A DNA stretch of 32,698 nucleotides from assembly GCA_030669305.1 (NCBI GenBank), contig DAOVDU010000015.1:1-32698 (forward strand). Direction: 5' to 3'. Below, one piece after another: positions 1-32,565 of this stretch. Within the stretch, counting starts at the first letter, position 1, and every line of letters begins with the position of its first letter. The stretch comes from Candidatus Aminicenantota bacterium (GTDB lineage Bacteria > Acidobacteriota > Aminicenantia > Aminicenantales > Aminicenantaceae). A model generated the notes under the pieces. That model had not been told where the DNA came from. It did no database searches and saw only the letters and a program-made list of their open reading frames with translations. Both the position numbers and the translations under genes were made by a program.

Positions 1-72
1 TTTTAATTTAAATATTTAACAGATTAACAGACTAACTGTCTAACTGATTAACTGACTAACAGATTAATAGAC
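1..72. repeat. Octamer array (GACTAACA/TAACTGAC type), left end of window
   Basis: A degenerate 8-bp tandem array (units such as TAACAGAT, TAACAGAC, TAACTGTC) follows an AT core resembling the one in the complete copies near 8.3, 10.4, 15.6, 16.9 and 26.1 kb. Only the core and right arm are inside the window; a left arm of inverted octamers is expected just outside. No gene is seen before the tRNA. Confidence 0.8.
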
Positions 73-123
73 GGAATAAACCTCTTTTATGTCTTTTCTT
101 TCTTGCCTTACTTGTGATTGTAA

Positions 124-254: not shown

Positions 255-968
255 GTGGATATTAATTTTGATAACCTGATTAACCTACAAAAACTGGATG
301 AAGAAATTAAGAACATCTCTCTTAACCTCGAAAAGATTCCTTCCGAGATTGAAGAAATAGACAAAAAAATCGAGGAGAGCGCTCGAATTTTATCCCAAAC
401 CAAAGAAAAATTAAATCACAACCAGAAAAAAAGGCGAGAATTAGAAGCTGAAATTCAAGATTTTAAAGAGAAAACATTAAAATACAAACGCCAGCTCAAT
501 GAAGTAAAAACAAATAAGGAGTATAGTTTCCTTCTTAAAGAAATAGAAGAAGCACAAAAAAAATTCGATGAATTGGAAGAACAGATAATAAGCGAAATGT
601 TATTGGCTGATGACATTGAGGAGGAAATAAAGGTTATCAGTCAAAATACAATCACAACAAAAGAAAAATTCTCACAGAAAAAAGATACCCTTTATAAGAA
701 AAAAGGAGAAACCGAAGAAGAAAAGAAAAAATTATCACAAAAAAAAGACGAACTTACTCTTAAAATTCCTGCTTACCAAATTAACCTTTATAAAAAGATA
801 TTCAGGGGAAAAAATGGGATTGCTCTTTCTCCTGTAAGGGACGAATTCTGCTCGATATGCCACATGCGTATAAGACCACAAATGTTAAATGAGTTGAGAA
901 CAGAAAACAATATTCATCTCTGTGAAAACTGCGGTAGAATCCTCTATTTGCCTAAAAAAAATAACTGA
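255..968 (+). CDS. COG1579-family coiled-coil protein with C-terminal C4 zinc ribbon
   Basis: This 237-residue protein begins with a GTG codon. The start is supported by GAGG at 244-247 about 7 nt upstream, and the overlapping ATG at 253 is in another frame. Residues about 5-175 are Lys/Glu-rich heptads, a long antiparallel coiled coil. The C-terminus carries four cysteines (C199, C202, C223, C226) in a CxxC...CxxC zinc ribbon of the type found in COG1579 (zf-RING_7) proteins. Members of that family are thought to bind nucleic acid; the exact role is unsettled. It is a single gene, convergent with the acyl-CoA synthetase. The TGA stop lies inside the first unit of the downstream 8-bp array, so its last residues are set by the repeat. 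Confidence 0.85.
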   Translation: MDINFDNLINLQKLDEEIKNISLNLEKIPSEIEEIDKKIEESARILSQTKEKLNHNQKKRRELEAEIQDFKEKTLKYKRQLNEVKTNKEYSFLLKEIEEAQKKFDELEEQIISEMLLADDIEEEIKVISQNTITTKEKFSQKKDTLYKKKGETEEEKKKLSQKKDELTLKIPAYQINLYKKIFRGKNGIALSPVRDEFCSICHMRIRPQMLNELRTENNIHLCENCGRILYLPKKNN

Positions 969-1020
969 CTAACTGACTAACTGATTAACAGATTAACTGA
1001 TTAACTGATTAACAGACTAA
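962..1020. repeat. Octamer tandem array between two convergent genes
   Basis: Seven units of an 8-bp repeat in exact register (consensus TAACTGAY, with TAACAGAY variants) plus a partial unit. It fills nearly the whole 60-bp gap between two convergent genes. The plus-strand gene takes its TGA stop from the first unit, and the minus-strand gene stops 8 nt from the other edge. An 8-bp period rotates through all reading frames, so stop codons occur in all six frames within a few units. Confidence 0.95.
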
Positions 1021-2865: not shown

Positions 2866-2901
2866 GTTAATCGGTTAGTCTGTTTGTCAGTTAATCAGTT
2901 T
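2866..2901. repeat. Octamer repeat fragment
   Basis: A short run of GTCAGTTA-type octamers (minus-strand equivalent TAACTGAC) just upstream of the acyl-CoA synthetase promoter, in the 260-bp spacer between that gene and gyrA. Confidence 0.7.
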
Positions 2902-2922
2902 GCTTTCACCTTTTCGCGCATA

Positions 2923-5488: not shown

Positions 5489-5542
5489 ATATTCTCCTTT
5501 TTAAGAATAAGTATCCAGAATACAAGATTCAGAAGTCAGAAT

Positions 5543-5570
5543 AACAGACTAACTGACTAACTGACTAACA
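5543..5570. repeat. Octamer array in the gyrB-gyrA spacer
   Basis: Three to four 8-bp units (minus strand TGTTAGTC, AGTTAGTC) start 3 nt after the gyrB TGA and lie inside a presumed gyrBA transcript. The tract therefore does not look like an absolute terminator. Confidence 0.85.
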
Positions 5571-5573
5571 GGA

Positions 5574-8213: not shown

Positions 8214-8235
8214 CAAAGCGAGCAAAAGGGGTGTC

Positions 8236-8263
8236 ATTGCAAAGCGCGAAGCGCTGTGGCAAT
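8236..8263. repeat. Covarying hairpin H1 (ATTGC...GCAAT)
   Basis: Outer stem ATTGC/GCAAT, inner stem AGCGC/GCGCT with loop GAA. It is followed directly by TCTTATAAGTTCAG and the octamer palindrome. It belongs to a seven-member family whose inner stems differ but still pair. Confidence 0.8.
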
Positions 8264-8270
8264 CTTATAA

Positions 8271-8390
8271 GTTCAGTTGGTCAGTTAGTCGGTTAATCAG
8301 TTGGTAAGTTAAATATTTTAATTAAAATAACAGACTAACCGATTAACAGACTAACAGTCTAACCGATTAACAGACTAACAGACTAACCGA
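8271..8390. repeat. Long octamer palindrome, copy 1
   Basis: The left arm is made of TCAGTTAG/TCGGTTAA-type octamers, the centre is TTAAATATTTTAATTAAAATAA (8309-8330), and the right arm is made of GATTAACA/GACTAACC octamers. The arms are inverted copies of one another, so the whole tract can fold into one imperfect hairpin. Confidence 0.9.
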
Positions 8391-8489: not shown

Positions 8490-9479
8490 ATGCCGACAAA
8501 TTTGCCGCCTCAGTATTTCGAGGCTGAAAAAAAATTAAAAGTTGCGAAAACCCCTCAAGAAAAAATGTCCGTTTTAGAAGAGCTTTTATCTATAGTGCCC
8601 AAACATAAAGGCACTGAAAAGCTTCAAGCATTACTCAAAACCAAGATAGCCAAACTAAAATTTCAGGTCCAAAAAAAGCCCACCATAGGAAGACAAAGAC
8701 CTGCTTTCAACATCGAGAAAGCAGGAGCTGGACAAGTTATCCTTATTGGCCCTCCTAATACAGGAAAATCTATGCTAATAAAAGCTCTGACAAATGCCAC
8801 TCCAGAGATAGGAAATTATCCGTTCACAACACGCATTCCCTCCCCTGCCATGATGGAGTATGAAAACATTCAGATTCAACTTGTAGATGCCCCCCCTATA
8901 ACACCTGATTATATGGAATCATGGCACTCTGAATTAATCAAAGGAGCAGATGGAATTTCAATCATTTTGGATTTAACCAGTCCCAATCCAGCCGGAGCTC
9001 TTCAGGTCCTCTTGGAGAAATTAAAAGAAAAGAAAATTGAAATTATTGCTGAAAATAAAGAAATTCCTTCTGATAAACAGCAGTTCATTAAAAAAGCATT
9101 AATTGTGGCAAACAAAATAGATCAGCCGCTAGCAGAAGAGAATCTTATTTCTCTAAAAAAATATGTCGAACCTGAGTACGACCTGATTTCTGTTTCTGCT
9201 TCTCGAGGAGATAATCTTGAAGATTTTAAAAAAAGAATCTTTATCTTTCTCAATGTCCTCCGCGTCTACAGCAAAACACCTGGCAAAAAAGTGGAGTTCA
9301 ATGCCCCTTTTATCTTTAAAAAGGGAAGTTCTCTTATGGACATGGCTAAAACCGTTCACAAGGACTTTTCCCAGAAACTTAAGTACGCCCGAATCTGGGG
9401 AAAAAACAAATACCAAGGGCAGAAAGTCAACAGGGACTATATCCTCCAGGACGAAGATATAATTGAATTACATATTTAG
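8490..9479 (+). CDS. DRG/Obg-like TGS-domain GTPase
   Basis: The 329-residue protein has three parts: an N-terminal helical segment (1-65), a TRAFAC-class G domain (about 80-255) and a C-terminal TGS domain (about 257-329). The P-loop is GPPNTGKS (87-94), G4 is NKID (208-211), and G5 is SAS (236-238). The switch-II position reads DAPP (133-136) in place of DxPG, so the usual Gly is replaced by Pro. Relatives in COG1163 bind ribosomes or RNA; this substrate is not known. The ATG start has AGAGG 5 nt upstream and a clear promoter. The gene stands alone and is convergent with a lipoprotein gene. Its TAG stop is immediately followed by a repeat palindrome. Confidence 0.88.
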   Translation: MPTNLPPQYFEAEKKLKVAKTPQEKMSVLEELLSIVPKHKGTEKLQALLKTKIAKLKFQVQKKPTIGRQRPAFNIEKAGAGQVILIGPPNTGKSMLIKALTNATPEIGNYPFTTRIPSPAMMEYENIQIQLVDAPPITPDYMESWHSELIKGADGISIILDLTSPNPAGALQVLLEKLKEKKIEIIAENKEIPSDKQQFIKKALIVANKIDQPLAEENLISLKKYVEPEYDLISVSASRGDNLEDFKKRIFIFLNVLRVYSKTPGKKVEFNAPFIFKKGSSLMDMAKTVHKDFSQKLKYARIWGKNKYQGQKVNRDYILQDEDIIELHI

Positions 9480-9533
9480 CTGTTCATCAGTTAGTCAGTT
9501 TGTCTGTTAAATATTTTAATTAAAATAACAGAT
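9480..9533. repeat. Octamer palindrome filling a convergent gene gap
   Basis: A compact copy of the octamer/ATTTTAATTAAAAT palindrome exactly occupies the 54 bp between two convergent stop codons. The centre and arms are the same as in the long copies. The position is where a bidirectional terminator would be expected. Confidence 0.85.
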
Positions 9534-9983
9534 TTACTTGAAAAAAAAATATTTAAATTTATAATCTTTATAATTATCGATTGGGATTTCACCAGCTTTA
9601 ACCCAGTTCCCATACGGAGCAAAATCAACATAGCCGTAGAGTCCAAAATCAAGAGTAATGCTGTGACATTCTTCATGAGCGATTGTATTTTTTACAATCT
9701 TCTGAGCAATGGACATTATTTGTTCATTTGATATACTGTTTGGTGCTTCAACACAGAATCTTAACCTATGGATGTTGCTTATATTAATGCTTTCTCTTTC
9801 TTTTATTGTATAGGATATTCCTTGTGACTTATCCGCTAAAGAAAATAAATCGTTCCTCTCAAGACCAGTAGATTCCTCTTTATAACAAGATGCAGTAAAA
9901 AATATAAAAATCAGGGCTAAATAAAAAAGACAAAGGAACAAAAAAAAGAAAATGGGCTTTGAAACGGGAAGAAGGTTTTTCAA
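9534..9983 (-). CDS. Small predicted lipoprotein of unknown function
   Basis: The frame is open to an upstream ATG at 10076, but that N-terminus does not look like a signal peptide. A TTG start at 9983 gives MKNLLPVSKP, a hydrophobic stretch and a TASC lipobox with Cys33, a proper lipoprotein signal, so I prefer it even though no clear ribosome binding site is visible. The mature part is about 117 residues and contains FCVEAPNSISNEQI, an amphipathic helix, and a C-terminal FAPYGNWVKAGEI segment. This resembles small uncharacterised lipoproteins (possibly the DUF4875 group; not certain). The stop directly touches the repeat palindrome shared with the GTPase gene. Confidence 0.6.
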   Translation of the reverse strand: MKNLLPVSKPIFFFLFLCLFYLALIFIFFTASCYKEESTGLERNDLFSLADKSQGISYTIKERESINISNIHRLRFCVEAPNSISNEQIMSIAQKIVKNTIAHEECHSITLDFGLYGYVDFAPYGNWVKAGEIPIDNYKDYKFKYFFFK

Positions 9984-10098
9984 TTTTTTACTCAGCTTGC
10001 TAGCTGCATCCCCCCTCCAGCTTTTGCGACATAGGCCACACCTTTCTTTTACCACTAAAATATAAAAATCATACATAAATTAAAATTTGTCAATAGAA

Positions 10099-10158
10099 TG
10101 TCACACTTTGTCACATTATGTCGCTCTTTGTCACATTATGTCACATCATGTCGCATTA
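10099..10158. repeat. 10-bp tandem array (TGTCACATTA)
   Basis: Six units of 10 bp in exact register, with variants TGTCACACTT, TGTCGCTCTT, TGTCACATCA and TGTCGCATTA. It begins about 22 bp upstream of the longest possible frame of the lipoprotein gene. It is the only decamer array in the window. Confidence 0.9.
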
Positions 10159-10295: not shown

Positions 10296-10309
10296 CTCAT
10301 CCCCGTGTC

Positions 10310-10339
10310 ATTGCGGGCTTTCGAAGAAAGCGTGGCAAT
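10310..10339. repeat. Covarying hairpin H3
   Basis: Outer stem ATTGC/GCAAT; inner GCTTTC/GAAAGC with loop GAA. TCTCATAAGTTCAG and the octamer palindrome follow, in the same order as at 8.2, 15.5 and 26.1 kb. Confidence 0.8.
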
Positions 10340-10346
10340 CTCATAA

Positions 10347-10434
10347 GTTCAGTTGATCAGTTAGTCGGTTAATCAGTTGGTCAGTTAAATATTTTAATTA
10401 AAATAACAGACTAACCGATTAACAGACTAACCGA
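10347..10434. repeat. Long octamer palindrome, copy 2
   Basis: Same arrangement as at 8271-8390: inverted octamer arms around the TTAAATATTTTAATTAAAATAA core. It sits just downstream of tRNA-Pro and upstream of the lipoprotein gene. Confidence 0.9.
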
Positions 10435-15436: not shown

Positions 15437-15481
15437 CGTCTATTCCGTCTATTCCGTCTGCTCCGTTTTGTCCGTTGTGTC
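15437..15481. repeat. 9-bp tandem array (CGTCTATTC)
   Basis: Five exact-register units: CGTCTATTC twice, then CGTCTGCTC, CGTTTTGTC and CGTTGTGTC. The last unit runs without a gap into the ATTGC of hairpin H4, so the two are parts of one composite. Confidence 0.9.
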
Positions 15482-15511
15482 ATTGCTAGCTTCCGAAGGA
15501 AGCGTGGCAAT
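15482..15511. repeat. Covarying hairpin H4
   Basis: Outer stem ATTGC/GCAAT; inner GCTTCC/GGAAGC with loop GAA. Same flanks as H1, H3 and H6. Confidence 0.8.
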
Positions 15512-15518
15512 CCCATAA

Positions 15519-15613
15519 GTTCAGTTGGTCAGTTAGTCGGTTAATCAGTTGGCCAGTTAAATATTTTAATTAAAATAACAGACTAACCGATTAACAGACT
15601 AACAGACTAACCG
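15519..15613. repeat. Long octamer palindrome, copy 3
   Basis: Inverted octamer arms around the AT core. The GCTTTGAGTTCTTCATTCCTC tail that follows is also found at about 8411-8432, and here it contains the last two codons and stop of the HAD gene. Confidence 0.9.
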
Positions 15614-15631
15614 AAATCAGCTTTGAGTTCT

Positions 15632-16870: not shown

Positions 16871-16936
16871 TAAGTAAGTTAATCAGTTGGTCAGTTAAAT
16901 ATTTTAATTAAAATAACAGACTAACAGACTAACTGA
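16871..16936. repeat. Octamer palindrome, short copy
   Basis: Same core and arms as the long copies but with fewer octamers per arm. It lacks the covarying hairpin on its left. It lies in the convergent gap between the small membrane protein and the ribbon-helix-helix gene. Confidence 0.85.
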
Positions 16937-17510: not shown

Positions 17511-17711
17511 CTCCTCACTCCTTACTTAATCCATAATCCCTAACCCCTAATCCTTAATCCAATAGTCCATTTAAATTGGTTAAATTGGCAATTAGTAAAT
17601 GGTGAATAGTTAATAGCTTTTTTGCCTTAAACCTTAAACTTTAAACCTTCAACCATTATTTCAGCTTACGGCTTACGTCTTACGGCTTACGAAATTAGTT
17701 TTGAACTTTGA
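17511..17711. repeat. Composite repeat block, copy A
   Basis: About 200 bp made of ordered heptamer blocks: CTCACTC-type, CCCTAAT-type, a unique TCCATTTAAATTGG segment, AATGGTGAATAGTTAATAG, CCTTAAA-type, GCTTACG-type, and a GTTTTGAACTTTGAG tail. A 108-bp stretch matches copy B (27910-28114, inverted) base for base. A direct copy C lies at 32251-32419. Confidence 0.93.
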
Positions 17712-17730
17712 GTGCTGAGTTTTATGTTTT

Positions 17731-21200: not shown

Positions 21201-22162
21201 CCGAAGATTTGATAGAATTTTTATTCTTTATTTCTGCCTTCTTTATAGCTGTCGTCCTTCTTTTTGCTCGAGGAATAGGGGAAATGATCATCACTCCCGT
21301 AAAAAAACTACTGGTTGGAACTAAAGAAGTAAGCCTTGGCAACCTTGAAATATCCATCCCGTATAAACATAAAGATGAGATGAAAACAATAATCGACGGA
21401 TTCAACACAATGGTCAAGAATCTAAAAAAACACCAGCAGGAACTTGCAGATATGACTAAAAAAGTTGCCTGGGCTGAAATGGCAAGAAAAGTAGCTCACG
21501 AAATAAAAAACCCTCTCACTCCGATACAGCTTTCAGCAGAACATCTGTTAAAGGTCTATAATGATAAGAAAGAAAATTTCGATGAAGCTCTAAAGGAGTC
21601 GGTTTTATACATCATAAACGAAGTCGAAAACCTCAGAAAAATTGCTCACGAATTTTTAGAAATATCAAAGGAAGTCACTCTCCAAAAAGAAGATTTTGAC
21701 TTAAAAGAAACCATTCAAGAAACAATAGAGCCTTATAAAAAAATTCTTTCGGAAAGAATCACTTTTTTAGAAACATATGATGGAGAAGATTTTGTCTTTA
21801 CGGGAGACAAAGCCAAAATAAAAATTGTTTTAAGAAACATTTTTACCAATGCTATCGAATCCGTTCATGGCCAAGGTGAGATAAAAATTAAGGCATCTAG
21901 CAAGAAAACAGGATTAATCCTTGAGATCAAAGACACGGGAATCGGCATCGAAAAAGATGCATTAGATAGAATCTTTGAACCCTACTTTTCGACTAAAGAT
22001 GTGGGGACAGGATTAGGACTGCCAATTGCCAAGAAAATCATAGAAGACCATGGAGGTTCCATAAACGCTTCAAGCAAAAAAAATGAAGGAACCCAAATCC
22101 TTATAAGGCTTCCAAAATCCAGCGACATAAAAAACAATAAAAGCAAGACAAATTTGGTTTAA
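18227..22162 (+). CDS. Giant NtrY-like multi-TM sensor histidine kinase
   Basis: A 1311-residue sensor. About 12 membrane segments are visible: one near 22-50, eight clustered at 275-540, two near 790-855, and one near 997-1022. Large extracytoplasmic loops span about 50-275, 540-790 and 855-995. Then come HAMP (about 1020-1075), HisKA with His1091 in ARKVAHEIKNPLTPIQLSAEHL, and an ATPase domain with N1208 (N box), DTGIG at 1236-1240 and GTGLGL at 1260-1265. The H-box matches NtrY. No response regulator is adjacent. The ATG at 18227 lies inside the previous gene and has no Shine-Dalgarno. A TTG at 18260 that overlaps the TGA stop (TTGA) is an alternative giving 1300 residues. The TAA stop is part of a GGTTTAA heptamer array. 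Confidence 0.9.
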   Translation: MENNRNQGRKNLKIYAKLDKKRIFLYAFVLGIAISALFLILSFLLPTLISSNYYQKSLTQLRNKAKTIKNEFTHVLDNIEQKKQLLLSSPFPEKKDGIFTLFKQIDLNTEREGLAYYKSQEDLILWLGNIVDIKSIPYSNEDGILYKEQKSSLLVRYKASVYLISIQKVNRDDYIVLYNLLAFLPQFKTPYLKEISFLKPKLQRNTVIDYLDFHEDVSGFEKIFASYKDEYIGQPRLQDNIQTILFPLRNEKNEIVATVTLSSPSLSSKISVQKENILLILYLLFGASLLSVLIHLLKSPLFFKERKFLPGLLVLLTLGGLRLLFFPLSNLEKIQSLSIFSPASASFLSFWNFTKSPADIFLTSLFLFLIIGCLAVYSRNLFNSEKKESSFVLSFLFSSVFIFISLLLIFLFQEFLIRLVFHSSLNLLRFSFEPSFILIHLSILFFFSTFFLTSLTGIRITSLYSSKLLLPLLILLLEFGVYILIFRERNSFILFFLQASVIILIFIFAYFPKVMRKKEVLFSAFLLIILFIFFSVHYSSSNRNRSLLQDSLQNIIKSQENWGTFLINQSLPEIDKKNESIESFFNISEPADLAHSLWERTLIAKFNWYSSLEMLSPEGIVLSRFSLNVPELYRLDVGLPLSQEWSISHQTIPFMKKERDFIVGYKDWFEEENHLGRLIICLSVDYDMLPFLYSANPYFELLRVSSIPSLEKLDLGFAIFDSSGKLLFNPDKISSGIPATLLQKIQTSQDSIWSSFTDKKRKFKSLYFRNKTRIYSLFIPEKNFLNYSVEFLTLFSLYLICFLFFFFLFSIVFGTKKLKNPLWSFSNRVYISFVAIALVPLFLFTLSTRNFFARIFTQQFTEKAEAQASVAQRVMEDFIFIQQEEQVSLTLPPDDLVLWISSTISNDVNLYQNGSLISSSRREFFDYGLLPEIINGEVFYKIQYENNPFYTQTQKIGDYSFHTLTIPYSFQDSLLLISLPFPLEQQEISKATEDLIEFLFFISAFFIAVVLLFARGIGEMIITPVKKLLVGTKEVSLGNLEISIPYKHKDEMKTIIDGFNTMVKNLKKHQQELADMTKKVAWAEMARKVAHEIKNPLTPIQLSAEHLLKVYNDKKENFDEALKESVLYIINEVENLRKIAHEFLEISKEVTLQKEDFDLKETIQETIEPYKKILSERITFLETYDGEDFVFTGDKAKIKIVLRNIFTNAIESVHGQGEIKIKASSKKTGLILEIKDTGIGIEKDALDRIFEPYFSTKDVGTGLGLPIAKKIIEDHGGSINASSKKNEGTQILIRLPKSSDIKNNKSKTNLV

Positions 22163-22183
22163 AGTTTAATGTTTAAGGTTTAA
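22156..22183. repeat. Heptamer array (GGTTTAA) containing the kinase stop codon
   Basis: Four 7-bp units (GGTTTAA, AGTTTAA, TGTTTAA, GGTTTAA). The TAA at the end of unit one ends the histidine kinase gene. Confidence 0.9.
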
Positions 22184-22199
22184 TGTTATTTATTCTTTA

Positions 22200-22236
22200 C
22201 CTTAAACCTTAAACCTTAATCCCTAATCCAACAATC
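22200..22236. repeat. Heptamer array (CCTTAAA to CCCTAAT)
   Basis: CCTTAAA twice, CCTTAAT, then CCCTAAT and a degenerate remainder. The same units build the composite repeat blocks; here they appear in a partial, rearranged copy. A nonamer-like segment (about 22285-22320) follows before the beta-barrel gene. Confidence 0.85.
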
Positions 22237-26063: not shown

Positions 26064-26084
26064 TTTCAGTTTAGTCCGTTTTGT

Positions 26085-26114
26085 CATGCGAGCTTTCGAA
26101 TAAAGCTCGGCAAT
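26085..26114. repeat. Covarying hairpin H6
   Basis: The outer ATTGC arm is altered to ATGC, but the inner stem is extended to GAGCTTT/AAAGCTC with loop CGAAT, so folding is kept. The octamer palindrome follows. Confidence 0.75.
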
Positions 26115-26119
26115 CTCAT

Positions 26120-26209
26120 AAGTTCAGTTGGTCAGTTAATCAGTTGGTCAGTTAAATATTTTAATTAAAATAACAGACTAACCGATTAACAGACTAACTG
26201 ACTAACTGA
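26120..26209. repeat. Long octamer palindrome, copy 4
   Basis: Same arms and core as the copies at 8271, 10347 and 15519, and same orientation. It lies in the convergent gap between the YHS-like and cupin genes. Confidence 0.9.
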
Positions 26210-27135: not shown

Positions 27136-27957
27136 ATGAAAAAAGTGCTTCTCTCCATTGCCGGGTACGACCCAACCTCAGGGGCAGGGATAATTCTCGA
27201 TTTAAAAGTATTTCAACATCTAGACTTTGAGGGAATGGCAATCCTAACTTCCGTAACTTCGCAAAACACAATACATGTAAAAAAGTTCCTTTGCGTTCCT
27301 TCTGATTTCCTCTGGGATCAGTATAAATGTCTCTATGAAGATGTCAATTTAGCCGGAATAAAAGTTGGAATGGTCGGCTGTAAAAACAATATTCCTATTA
27401 TCGAAAGAATCTTGTCCGACAATCCAGACATCCCTAAAGTCATAGACCCTGTCTTTAAGTCTAGCTCAGGAATCTGGCTTTTAGAAAAAAAAGCTGTTTC
27501 CATTTACATAAAAAAAATCAGCGGGAAAGCATCTCTCCTTACTCCTAACCTAGAGGAAGCCGCTTTATTATCAGGCAGAAAAGTTGAAAACTTATCTGAT
27601 ATGAAAGAAGCAGCTGAAAGAATCTACAGTCTAACAAGAGTTCCCTGTTTGATTAAAGGAGGACATCTTCCAAACCAAGCATCAGATCTATTGTTTGACG
27701 GGACCATATTTCATCTTTTAAAAAAAGAAAAAATAACAAAAAAAGTCCATGGAACAGGATGTTTTTTCTCATCAAGCCTTCTAGGCTATCTGGCAAAAGG
27801 AAAATCTCTCAAAAAAGCATGTTCTCTTGCAAGCAGACTTACTTTTAACGCAATAAAGAATGCGGTTTCGATCGGTCATGGACAGGCCATCATCACATTC
27901 CCTATTAAAACTCAAAACTCAAAGCGCAAAACTAATTTCGTAAGCCGTAAGCCGTAA
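27136..27957 (+). CDS. thiD: Hydroxymethylpyrimidine (phosphomethylpyrimidine) kinase
   Basis: Ribokinase-fold kinase of 273 residues. It phosphorylates HMP and HMP-P for thiamin pyrimidine synthesis. Signatures: GYDPTSGAG (10-18) at the substrate site, IDPVFKSSSG, LTPNLEEAALLSG, LIKGGH, and the anion-hole motif HGTGCFFSSSLLGYLAKG. No TPP riboswitch is visible in the short leader, and no thiC or thiE is nearby. About the last 17 codons (IKTQNSKRKTNFVSRKP) read through the edge of composite repeat block B, and the TAA stop is inside a GTAAGCC heptamer, so the tail is repeat-derived and probably dispensable. Confidence 0.92.
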   Translation: MKKVLLSIAGYDPTSGAGIILDLKVFQHLDFEGMAILTSVTSQNTIHVKKFLCVPSDFLWDQYKCLYEDVNLAGIKVGMVGCKNNIPIIERILSDNPDIPKVIDPVFKSSSGIWLLEKKAVSIYIKKISGKASLLTPNLEEAALLSGRKVENLSDMKEAAERIYSLTRVPCLIKGGHLPNQASDLLFDGTIFHLLKKEKITKKVHGTGCFFSSSLLGYLAKGKSLKKACSLASRLTFNAIKNAVSIGHGQAIITFPIKTQNSKRKTNFVSRKP

Positions 27958-28114
27958 GCCGTAAGCCGAAATAATGGTTGAAGGTTTAAAGTTTAAGGTT
28001 TAAGGCAAAAAAGCTATTAACTATTCACCATTTACTAATTGCCAATTTAACCAATTTAAATGGACTATTGGATTAGGGATTATGGATTAAGTAAGGAGTG
28101 AGAAGTGAGGAGTA
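27910..28114. repeat. Composite repeat block, copy B (inverted relative to A)
   Basis: Four exact GTAAGCC heptamers (27940-27967) are followed by the GGTTTAA-type, TTCACCATTTAC and GGATTAG-type blocks, then GTAAGGAGTGAG. 108 bp are identical to the reverse complement of copy A. The left edge overlaps the last codons of thiD. Confidence 0.93.
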
Positions 28115-28139: not shown

Positions 28140-28205
28140 AACTGATTTTCAGTTAATCTGTTAGACAATTTTAATTAAAATAATTAACGGATAAACAGAC
28201 TAACT
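28140..28205. repeat. Octamer palindrome variant ending the PTS gene
   Basis: Degenerate octamers on both sides of a TTTTAATTAAAATAATTAA core. The TAG stop of the PTS EIIA gene is read from GTTAGTC, one of its units. Confidence 0.8.
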
Positions 28206-28673
28206 AATCTTACCTTCTTCTTCCTCTAAAATCGAATGAATGTCCTGGGGAGATTTTGCTATCTTAATTTTTTCTATAAACTGGGTTTCTTTGACCAGAC
28301 GGCAGATATGGCCAAGTACTTTGAGTTGAAACCCTGGATTATTTTTATTTCCTAGAAGCAGGAAAAAAATGTAAGTAGGCATTTGATCTACAGCCTCGAA
28401 ATCAACCCCCTTTTTTGAAAGAGCCAAGGCAAGAAAAGGTTCCTTCACTTCCTCTGTTAAAGCATGGGGAATAGCAACACCTTTTTCTAATCCCGTGCTC
28501 CCTAAACTTTCTCTTTTTAGAAGTTCATCCAGGATAATCTTTTCATTAGAAATCAAACCGCTCTCTTTTAATTCAAAAACAAACTCTTCAAGAACATGTC
28601 TCTTATCTCCTGGCTTTAAATCGAGGATTATATGATTTTCCTTTAAAAGTCCACAAATATTCATTTCTTGCAT
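28200..28673 (-). CDS. Orphan PTS EIIA type-2 (PtsN/fructose-like) domain protein
   Basis: A 157-residue single-domain protein of the mannitol/fructose EIIA fold. The phosphorylatable His70 lies in KGVAIPHALTEEV, preceded by LLKRESLGSTGLEKG and followed by the DFEAVDQMPTYIFFLLL core strand. Alone, without EIIB/EIIC, HPr or EI nearby, it is more likely a regulatory relay (PtsN-like) than a transporter component. No obvious ribosome binding site is seen before the ATG at 28673; ATG at 28664 (MNICGLL) is an alternative. The stop codon lies within an octamer repeat. Confidence 0.88.
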   Translation of the reverse strand: MQEMNICGLLKENHIILDLKPGDKRHVLEEFVFELKESGLISNEKIILDELLKRESLGSTGLEKGVAIPHALTEEVKEPFLALALSKKGVDFEAVDQMPTYIFFLLLGNKNNPGFQLKVLGHICRLVKETQFIEKIKIAKSPQDIHSILEEEEGKIS

Positions 28674-32097: not shown

Positions 32098-32565
32098 TCT
32101 CTACCTTCTCACATCTTCCTAAACATGATAATCAAAAAATTATCTTGTAGCAAATTATTTTTTACGCCAATTTATTCCGTTATGTCCGTTTAGCCCGAAG
32201 TGTCATTGTCTCCCACTCTCCCCATCTCCCAGTCTCCTTGTCCTCTTTTCTCACTCCTCACTCCTCACTTAATCCATAATCCCTAATCCTTAATCCAATT
32301 GTCCATTTAAATTGGTAATTAGTGAATGGTGAATAGTTAATAGCTTTTTTGCCTTAAACCTTAAACTTTAAACCTTCAACCATTATTTCAGCTTACGGCT
32401 CACGGCTTACGTCTTACGAGTGCACTGCCTCCTTGCTGTGAATGGTGATTGGGGAATACTGATATACTGCTGAACTGCCATACTGACGAAGAATAAGGGA
32501 GTGGTGAATGGTAAATGGTTTTTTTTGCTTACGGCTTACGATGTTATTGTTACTGAGTCACTGAA
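32098..32565. other. Gene-free 468-bp spacer of repeats
   Basis: Contains AT-rich leader, a CCGTTTAGCCCG nonamer-like fragment with GTGTCATTG (about 32171-32207), a CTCCCACTCTCCCC tract (32205-32240), composite block copy C (32251-32419), a segment with short GATTGGGG/TACTGA-like words, a second AATGGTAAATGG/GCTTACG mini-block (about 32508-32540) and a TTACTGAG array next to the larB stop. No gene seen. Confidence 0.8.
32251..32419. repeat. Composite repeat block, copy C
   Basis: Same block order and orientation as copy A. It lacks 10 bp around TTAAATTGGC and one CCCTAAC unit, but its stretch from GTGAATAGTTAATAG through GCTTACGG matches copy A over about 70 bp. Confidence 0.9.

Follow-up and report, generated by a model that had tools for sequence, protein, structure and literature searches.

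Octamer-armed palindromes of an Aminicenantes genome as probable gene-less relatives of an S23 mobile element bounded by inverted tandem arrays

The palindromes of facing octamers described here are, on balance, probably MITE-like elements without an ORF, derived from a mobile element of the S23 (rRNA-IVS-like) kind whose boundaries are inverted tandem arrays. They are linked to a gene-bearing form by the same repeat unit, the same polarity and the same arm design, with an 18-bp core in place of the gene. We infer their descent from this gene-bearing octamer form rather than read it off directly, because the core is not recognisable as a remainder of the S23 gene that was found on another contig (C28). 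Since the gene-bearing form is not in the window (the whole stretch of 32,698 nucleotides that was analysed), the link to a mobile element is not visible within it. The window is an entire contig (C25) of a 2.06-Mb, 122-contig genome; a TGS-domain GTPase encoded at 8490-9479 shares 60-69% identity with its counterparts in Candidatus Aminicenantes MAGs, which places the host among the uncultured Aminicenantes.

The exact 14-bp core ATTTTAATTAAAAT is present in the window at 8315, 9513, 10391, 15563, 16901, 26158 and 28168, and around all seven cores GTT-type octamers extend leftward and AAC-type octamers rightward (Table 1). A sequence-only reading of this DNA had listed copies at 8271, 9480, 10347, 15519, 16871, 26120 and 28140, and each of these does contain an exact core with facing octamers. 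The inward geometry that it described is also correct: among array pairs within 60 bp of each other in the genome, 51 point inward and 1 outward. So is its claim that the 9480 copy fills a gap between convergent stop codons, since palindrome 2 occupies the 54 bp between a stop codon ending at 9479 and a convergent ORF ending at 9534. No S23 or four-helix-bundle ORF was found in the window copies, which hold only the 18-bp core. Four palindromes have an upstream module in common (8229-8358, 10305-10434, 15477-15606 and 26072-26209) with a GTCATTGCGA...GGCAATCTCAT repeat, which indicates that a longer cassette (~130 bp) was copied.

Table 1. Octamer palindromes and one-sided octamer arrays of the window
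Feature	Position	Strand	Parts and context	RNA fold z
Palindrome 1	8273..8390	+	left arm 8273-8310 (~5 octamers), core 8311-8328, right arm 8329-8390 (~8 octamers)	-7.0
Palindrome 2, compact	9487..9534	+	left arm 9487-9508, core 9509-9526, right arm of one unit	
Palindrome 3	10349..10434	+	left arm 10349-10386, core 10387-10404, right arm 10405-10434	-6.7
Palindrome 4	15521..15616	+	left arm 15521-15558, core 15559-15576, right arm 15577-15616	-8.3
Palindrome 5	16875..16936	+	left arm 16875-16896, core 16897-16914, right arm 16915-16936	-4.6
Palindrome 6	26124..26209	+	left arm 26124-26153, core 26154-26171, right arm 26172-26209	-7.4
Palindrome 7	28149..28207	-	core mirror-oriented (14-bp core 28168-28181); short, left side partly out of phase	-3.0
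Half palindrome	1..75	.	variant core and right arm, truncated by contig end	
One-sided octamer array, no core	954..1020	.	between convergent ORFs	
One-sided octamer array	2871..2903	.	GTT orientation	
One-sided octamer array	5540..5571	.	AAC orientation	

Across the genome the exact core occurs 38 times (0 for a reversed-letter control), and a sequence model gave 147 matches, most of them scoring on both strands, which represent ~75 distinct elements. A pattern written for a variant core had no match. The octamer consensus is ADTCDGTT in the left arm and AACHGAHT in the right arm, both directed inward, and the modal GTT-to-AAC distance is 18 bp. The core is not symmetric, reading either GTT-AAAT-ATTTTAATTAAAAT-AAC (also written GTTAAATATTTTAATTAAAATAAC) or the mirror image of this; every element therefore has an orientation of its own, and orientations are mixed across the genome. 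Arms consist of 1 to 21 units, the lengths of the two arms of one copy are uncorrelated (r = -0.015), and the order of units in the arms shows higher-order periods. The elements have been dispersed as units, as seen in 93 bp at 97% identity between contigs C15 and C67 with differing flanks. They thus combine the inverted terminal repeats, the lack of an ORF and the many dispersed copies (~75) of MITEs, and the arrays are degenerate intergenic tandem repeats of short units, as STRRs are.

The family appears to be private to this species. A 20-bp core was found in none of 40 relatives, the family is lacking in 37 other members of the taxonomic family, the octamer array pattern was found in none of 395 other genomes of the phylum, and the core had no match in a wider collection of genome contigs. 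Matches to the octamer pattern in viral contigs were mostly simple, unrelated arrays; with no S23 relative among viral contigs or phages either, a viral source of the octamers was rejected. Arrays of 7-, 9- and 10-mers are also carried by the intergenic DNA. One 7-mer solo palindrome (22157-22225 of the window; GTTTAAG facing CCTTAAA, core ~15 bp) has the same architecture with another unit, and a mosaic of 7-mer arrays is repeated at 95-96% in both orientations (17541-17724, 27906-28089 and 32307-32419). A 10-mer array of the TGTCACATTA type lies 3' of the TGS GTPase gene both in the window (10098-10158) and in two relatives (L086 7804-7843 and L088 7322-7399); in contrast to the octamers, it appears conserved.

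Some palindrome cores are interrupted. On contig C43 (locus L163, 560-2040) an ISL3-family IS has entered the AT core of one octamer palindrome, with an 8-bp duplication (TTTTAATT), which shows that cores serve as insertion targets. Short elements in other cores (C88:62480, C89:7990, C26:22846; locus L173) have ISL3-like ends, GGCTCATCTCC...GGAGAAGAACC, together with remnants of a four-helix-bundle gene, and 7-8 of 8 bases are duplicated at them. Because pieces of a four-helix-bundle gene were thus present in DNA interrupting palindrome cores, a search for PF05635 (23S_rRNA_IVP, S23) was carried out, and four copies were found in this genome. On contig C28, an intact 123-aa S23 ORF has ~20 inward GTT-octamers on one side and ~9 inward AAC-octamers on the other, all belonging to the octamer family described here; matches of its product include NCBIfam TIGR02436, 'four helix bundle protein', as well as PDB 2gsc, and the two flanks of the ORF align with each other (inverted) over 62 bp. 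Another S23 gene (C102:2131) is flanked by inverted GCAAGGCGY arrays, and internally deleted S23 remnants are present for another S23 element of the genome. Inward octamers on both sides were seen for only two of 234 other genes, a sample biased upward by being drawn from own-genome loci chosen for arrays. One is the ISL3 transposase gene, a case of insertion into a palindrome core, and the other is an NAD-dependent epimerase gene (contig C37, locus L170 62-1360) between ~16 and ~19 inward octamers. The genome also has two RAYT-type (Y1_Tnp) genes (loci L135 and L136), each within its own inverted repeat unrelated to the octamers. Mobilisation of the RAYT/REP kind, in which a RAYT gene is flanked by the same palindrome, was rejected on the basis of these other flanks.

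The hypothesis that S23 genes are bounded by inverted arrays was derived from the four S23 genes of this genome and then tested outside it, in a sample comprising other Aminicenantes, plasmids of cyanobacteria, Riemerella, Gemmatirosa and Azospirillum, and genomes including Flavobacteriia and Dehalococcoidia. At a threshold score of 34 or more, inverted matching flanks were found for 17 of 54 S23 genes, not all of them independent as some insertions are common to related plasmids, and for 1 of 219 ordinary ORFs used as controls (P = 1.7e-12). On plasmids the fraction was 12/22 (P = 1.3e-13); it was 3/14 in other Aminicenantes and 2/18 in other genomes. Roughly two in three of the S23 genes in the test are below the threshold, and one of the 17 positives (L183) is a non-tandem inverted repeat. 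The repeat unit (6-9 bp) is specific to the locus (AGGGAAC, GGGAAAA, AGGTGAC, GGTGTAG, GCAGGAGG, CTAGTTTTT and others), and several of these S23 genes are located within operons, among them CRISPR-Cas operons on plasmids (L202, L209 and L213), in the orders cas6-S23-cas4 and cas10-S23-cmr3.

Pairs of empty and occupied sites were found on cyanobacterial plasmids. Plasmids pNsp_a and pNsp_c of Nostoc ATCC 53789 have an operon, X-Y-Z, in homologous form. On pNsp_a, X and Y are separated by an S23 unit and nothing is inserted at Y-Z; on pNsp_c, X and Y adjoin without an insert, and another S23 unit, with a repeat of its own, separates Y from Z. The insert at the X-Y site reads AATCAGGAGTCAGAAGTCAG...S23...CTGACTTCTGGA with TTCTA on each side, an exact 5-bp duplication. 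A site on Trichormus plasmid C likewise has an exact 5-bp duplication (GTAAT) and an empty counterpart in Nostoc linckia NIES-25. At both sites the tandem arrays are at, or ≤ ~15 bp from, the insertion points. Nostoc C052 pE has a decayed copy, reduced to the left array and a truncated S23 gene, at the same site as the Trichormus unit. Match coverage indicated empty sites for three more S23 loci; at the one of these compared base by base, a Calothrix site, the borders were indistinct. As far as sequence comparison can show it, the empty and occupied plasmid sites demonstrate that array, S23 gene and array were inserted together as one unit. This insertion is firmer than the link between the unit and the window palindromes. 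Target duplications, as would be expected of a MITE, were seen (5 bp) at two S23-bearing Nostocales plasmid sites, which are not window copies. Four stretches of cyanobacterial plasmid, 182 kb in total, contained no gene-less palindromes with tandem arms. In another phylum, a Gemmatirosa plasmid (L219 18080, 28520, 29640, 35750 and 40410) contains gene-less 9-mer palindromes (CCGCAGAGGACGCAGAGGA; GGACAGGATGAACAGGAT).

According to the explanation that we favour, the insertion element would be bounded by inward inverted arrays in which a short unit, here ADTCDGTT / AACHGAHT, is repeated in tandem, and a complete element would enclose a single S23 / 23S-rRNA-IVS / Avd-like four-helix-bundle gene (PF05635). 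Array, gene and array would be inserted as a single unit, mostly into intergenic DNA, and the gene would be lost from copies through internal deletion. Arms would grow and shrink by single units, probably through slippage; the conserved unit sequence would presumably be read by a protein, and the arrays might be recognised by the S23 protein itself or by a transposase acting in trans. Imperfect hairpins in transcripts may make insertions near 3' ends tolerable. Supporting this explanation, gene-bearing and gene-less octamer copies coexist in the genome. Several observations count against this explanation: the core is not recognisable as part of the C28 gene, one gene-bearing octamer copy is known to ~75 solos, the interior of the C28 element, including any deletion product of its gene, matches nothing else in the genome except 27 bp, and inward octamers also flank the two non-S23 genes mentioned above (ISL3 and epimerase). 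Also counting against it, most of the tested S23 genes are below the flank threshold, the cyanobacterial plasmid stretches are without gene-less palindromes, close relatives lack the family and so offer no empty sites for the window copies, and no transposase was found associated with octamer ends, the C28 form containing the S23 gene only.

The sequence-only reading had held that the arms vary in unit number but stay complementary, and that loss of complementarity in other copies would refute it. Unit number does vary over the range given above, but pairing between arms is confined to the invariant frame AAC.GA.T. This was established with a covariation set of 35 two-armed copies providing 154 facing unit pairs. 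After complementing, facing octamers matched over the full unit in 1.9% of cases (6.3 +/- 1.8% with arms permuted between copies), and the variable fourth position of the octamer matched in 30.5% (32.9% in permuted arms). Pairing was seen in 84.0% of alignment cells compared with 85.0 +/- 0.5% in shuffles, and covariation was 0.056 compared with 0.067, all covariation measures being under the shuffled mean. Complementarity is therefore lost at the variable positions. A covarying RNA hairpin was ruled out, there being no compensatory change and no more matching of facing units than expected by chance; it is the unit sequence that is conserved, rather than pairing. The five larger window copies nevertheless fold better than shuffles (z -4.6 to -8.3), because both arms are built of one unit and a mismatch occurs about once per octamer, while palindrome 2, with its single right-hand unit, folds no better than shuffles. 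If anything, perfect facing matches are avoided. Long perfect palindromes are known to be unstable, and the avoidance would fit this instability.

None of the 38 exact-core copies is inside a called gene. Excluding four at contig edges, which are unclassifiable, 34 copies could be assigned to gaps between tandem (16), convergent (12) or divergent (6) genes, where single assignments may be wrong since genes were called by a simple ORF picker. Convergent gaps contain more copies than their proportion of the intergenic bases would predict (P = 0.005) and divergent gaps perhaps fewer (P = 0.08); of the 16 copies in tandem gaps, 13 are closer to the 3' end of the upstream gene (P = 0.01). Random placement relative to gene orientation, the other outcome that the sequence-only reading had said would refute it, was thus not observed, yet the distribution is not that of terminators and looks more like avoidance of promoters. 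The palindromes could be thought of as bidirectional transcription terminators or as hairpins that stabilise mRNA 3' ends, and the folding of the large copies, the convergent excess and the proximity of tandem copies to upstream 3' ends favour this. We nonetheless consider such a function very unlikely. Compensatory change is absent, the sequence lacks the GC-rich stem and neighbouring U tract of an intrinsic terminator, and some copies lie between divergent genes, among them the copy with its core at 8315 that the sequence-only reading had named; moreover, the copy at 9487, at a convergent gap, is the one that folds no better than shuffles. Neither a structural nor a terminator reading of the palindromes is supported.

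That the unit sequence is conserved and pairing is not would also agree with octamers in inverted register being putative arrays of sites for some abundant protein that binds DNA or regulates genes, with a role in chromosome organisation or gene regulation. MetJ binds 8-bp met boxes side by side, and the omega repressor does so on heptads. In Geobacter metallireducens, comparable pairs of octamer arrays have been interpreted as putative IHF/HU sites (PMC2700814). Such a role is improbable in our view: the family is private to the species, arms range from 1 to 21 units, the relation to genes is not fixed, and the S23 genes that have different units in other phyla would be left unexplained. Less easily set aside, but still unlikely, is that the arrays are neutral repeats of the STRR type which grow by slippage, form inverted pairs via template switching and spread by recombination, S23 elements merely inserting beside arrays or acquiring them. 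The independent arm lengths, the higher-order periods in unit order, the frequent one-sided arrays and the 7-, 9- and 10-mer arrays elsewhere in intergenic DNA are what neutral growth would produce; the strict inward polarity (51 to 1), the nearly fixed 18-bp core, the copies with the same units at unrelated sites and the Nostoc empty sites, which lack both array and gene, are not.

Short tandem and palindromic repeat arrays in bacteria have been noted for decades without an accepted origin. Insertion of array and gene together joins two puzzles, the origin of such repeats and the role of the common S23 genes, and makes array-S23-array a testable mobile element. It suggests a possible job for the Avd-like S23 family, nucleic acid binding during mobility, and it cautions against taking the octamer hairpins for a regulatory structure. 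We tentatively extend the proposal, as a serious possibility that falls short of probable, to a widespread and unrecognised class in which an S23 gene lies within inverted 6-9-bp arrays and insertion duplicates 5 bp of the target; it would span Cyanobacteriota, Acidobacteriota (Aminicenantes), Gemmatimonadota, Bacteroidota and Pseudomonadota. Gene-less or decayed copies of this class might make up much of the short tandem repeat content (STRRs, Geobacter 'regulator sites', rRNA IVSs and intron P6b stems). A literature search, which did not extend to subscription papers and is hence no proof of novelty, found nothing linking S23 genes to tandem-array termini or 5-bp duplications.

Several known systems resemble the octamer elements in part. 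Like MITEs and REP/BIME, the palindromes are small, gene-less, intergenic and multicopy; unlike these, they end in tandem arrays and not in one inverted repeat. In Geobacter metallireducens, the class 1-3 'global regulator binding sites' are octamer or heptamer arrays paired on opposite strands (PMC2700814), likewise multicopy and species-specific, but with the unit GTTGCTYN, variable spacing and no constant AT core. In cyanobacteria, P6b of the Nostoc tRNA-Leu intron has stems of facing heptamers with variable unit number, the origin of which was stated as unknown (PMC4476775). STRRs and P6b share short degenerate tandem units and variation in unit number with the octamer elements, and the facing arrays of P6b form a stem; the octamer elements differ in unit length, in their non-cyanobacterial host and in their fixed AT core. 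S23 genes bounded by short tandem arrays are, as shown above, found on cyanobacterial plasmids. PF05635 proteins resemble Avd of diversity-generating retroelements (PMC10053308), and S23 ORFs are contained in 23S rRNA intervening sequences. In the 23S IVS of Coxiella burnetii, which its authors termed selfish and for which transposition was among their hypotheses, the S23 ORF is preceded by three tandem heptamers of variable number, situated in the stem, within terminal inverted repeats (PMC4990558). The octamer elements share with this type the terminal inverted repeats (51 inward pairs, 1 outward) and, in the gene-bearing form, the S23 ORF; they differ in being intergenic and not in a 23S rRNA helix (no rRNA match was found in the window), in their octamer units, in window copies without an ORF and in numbering tens per genome.
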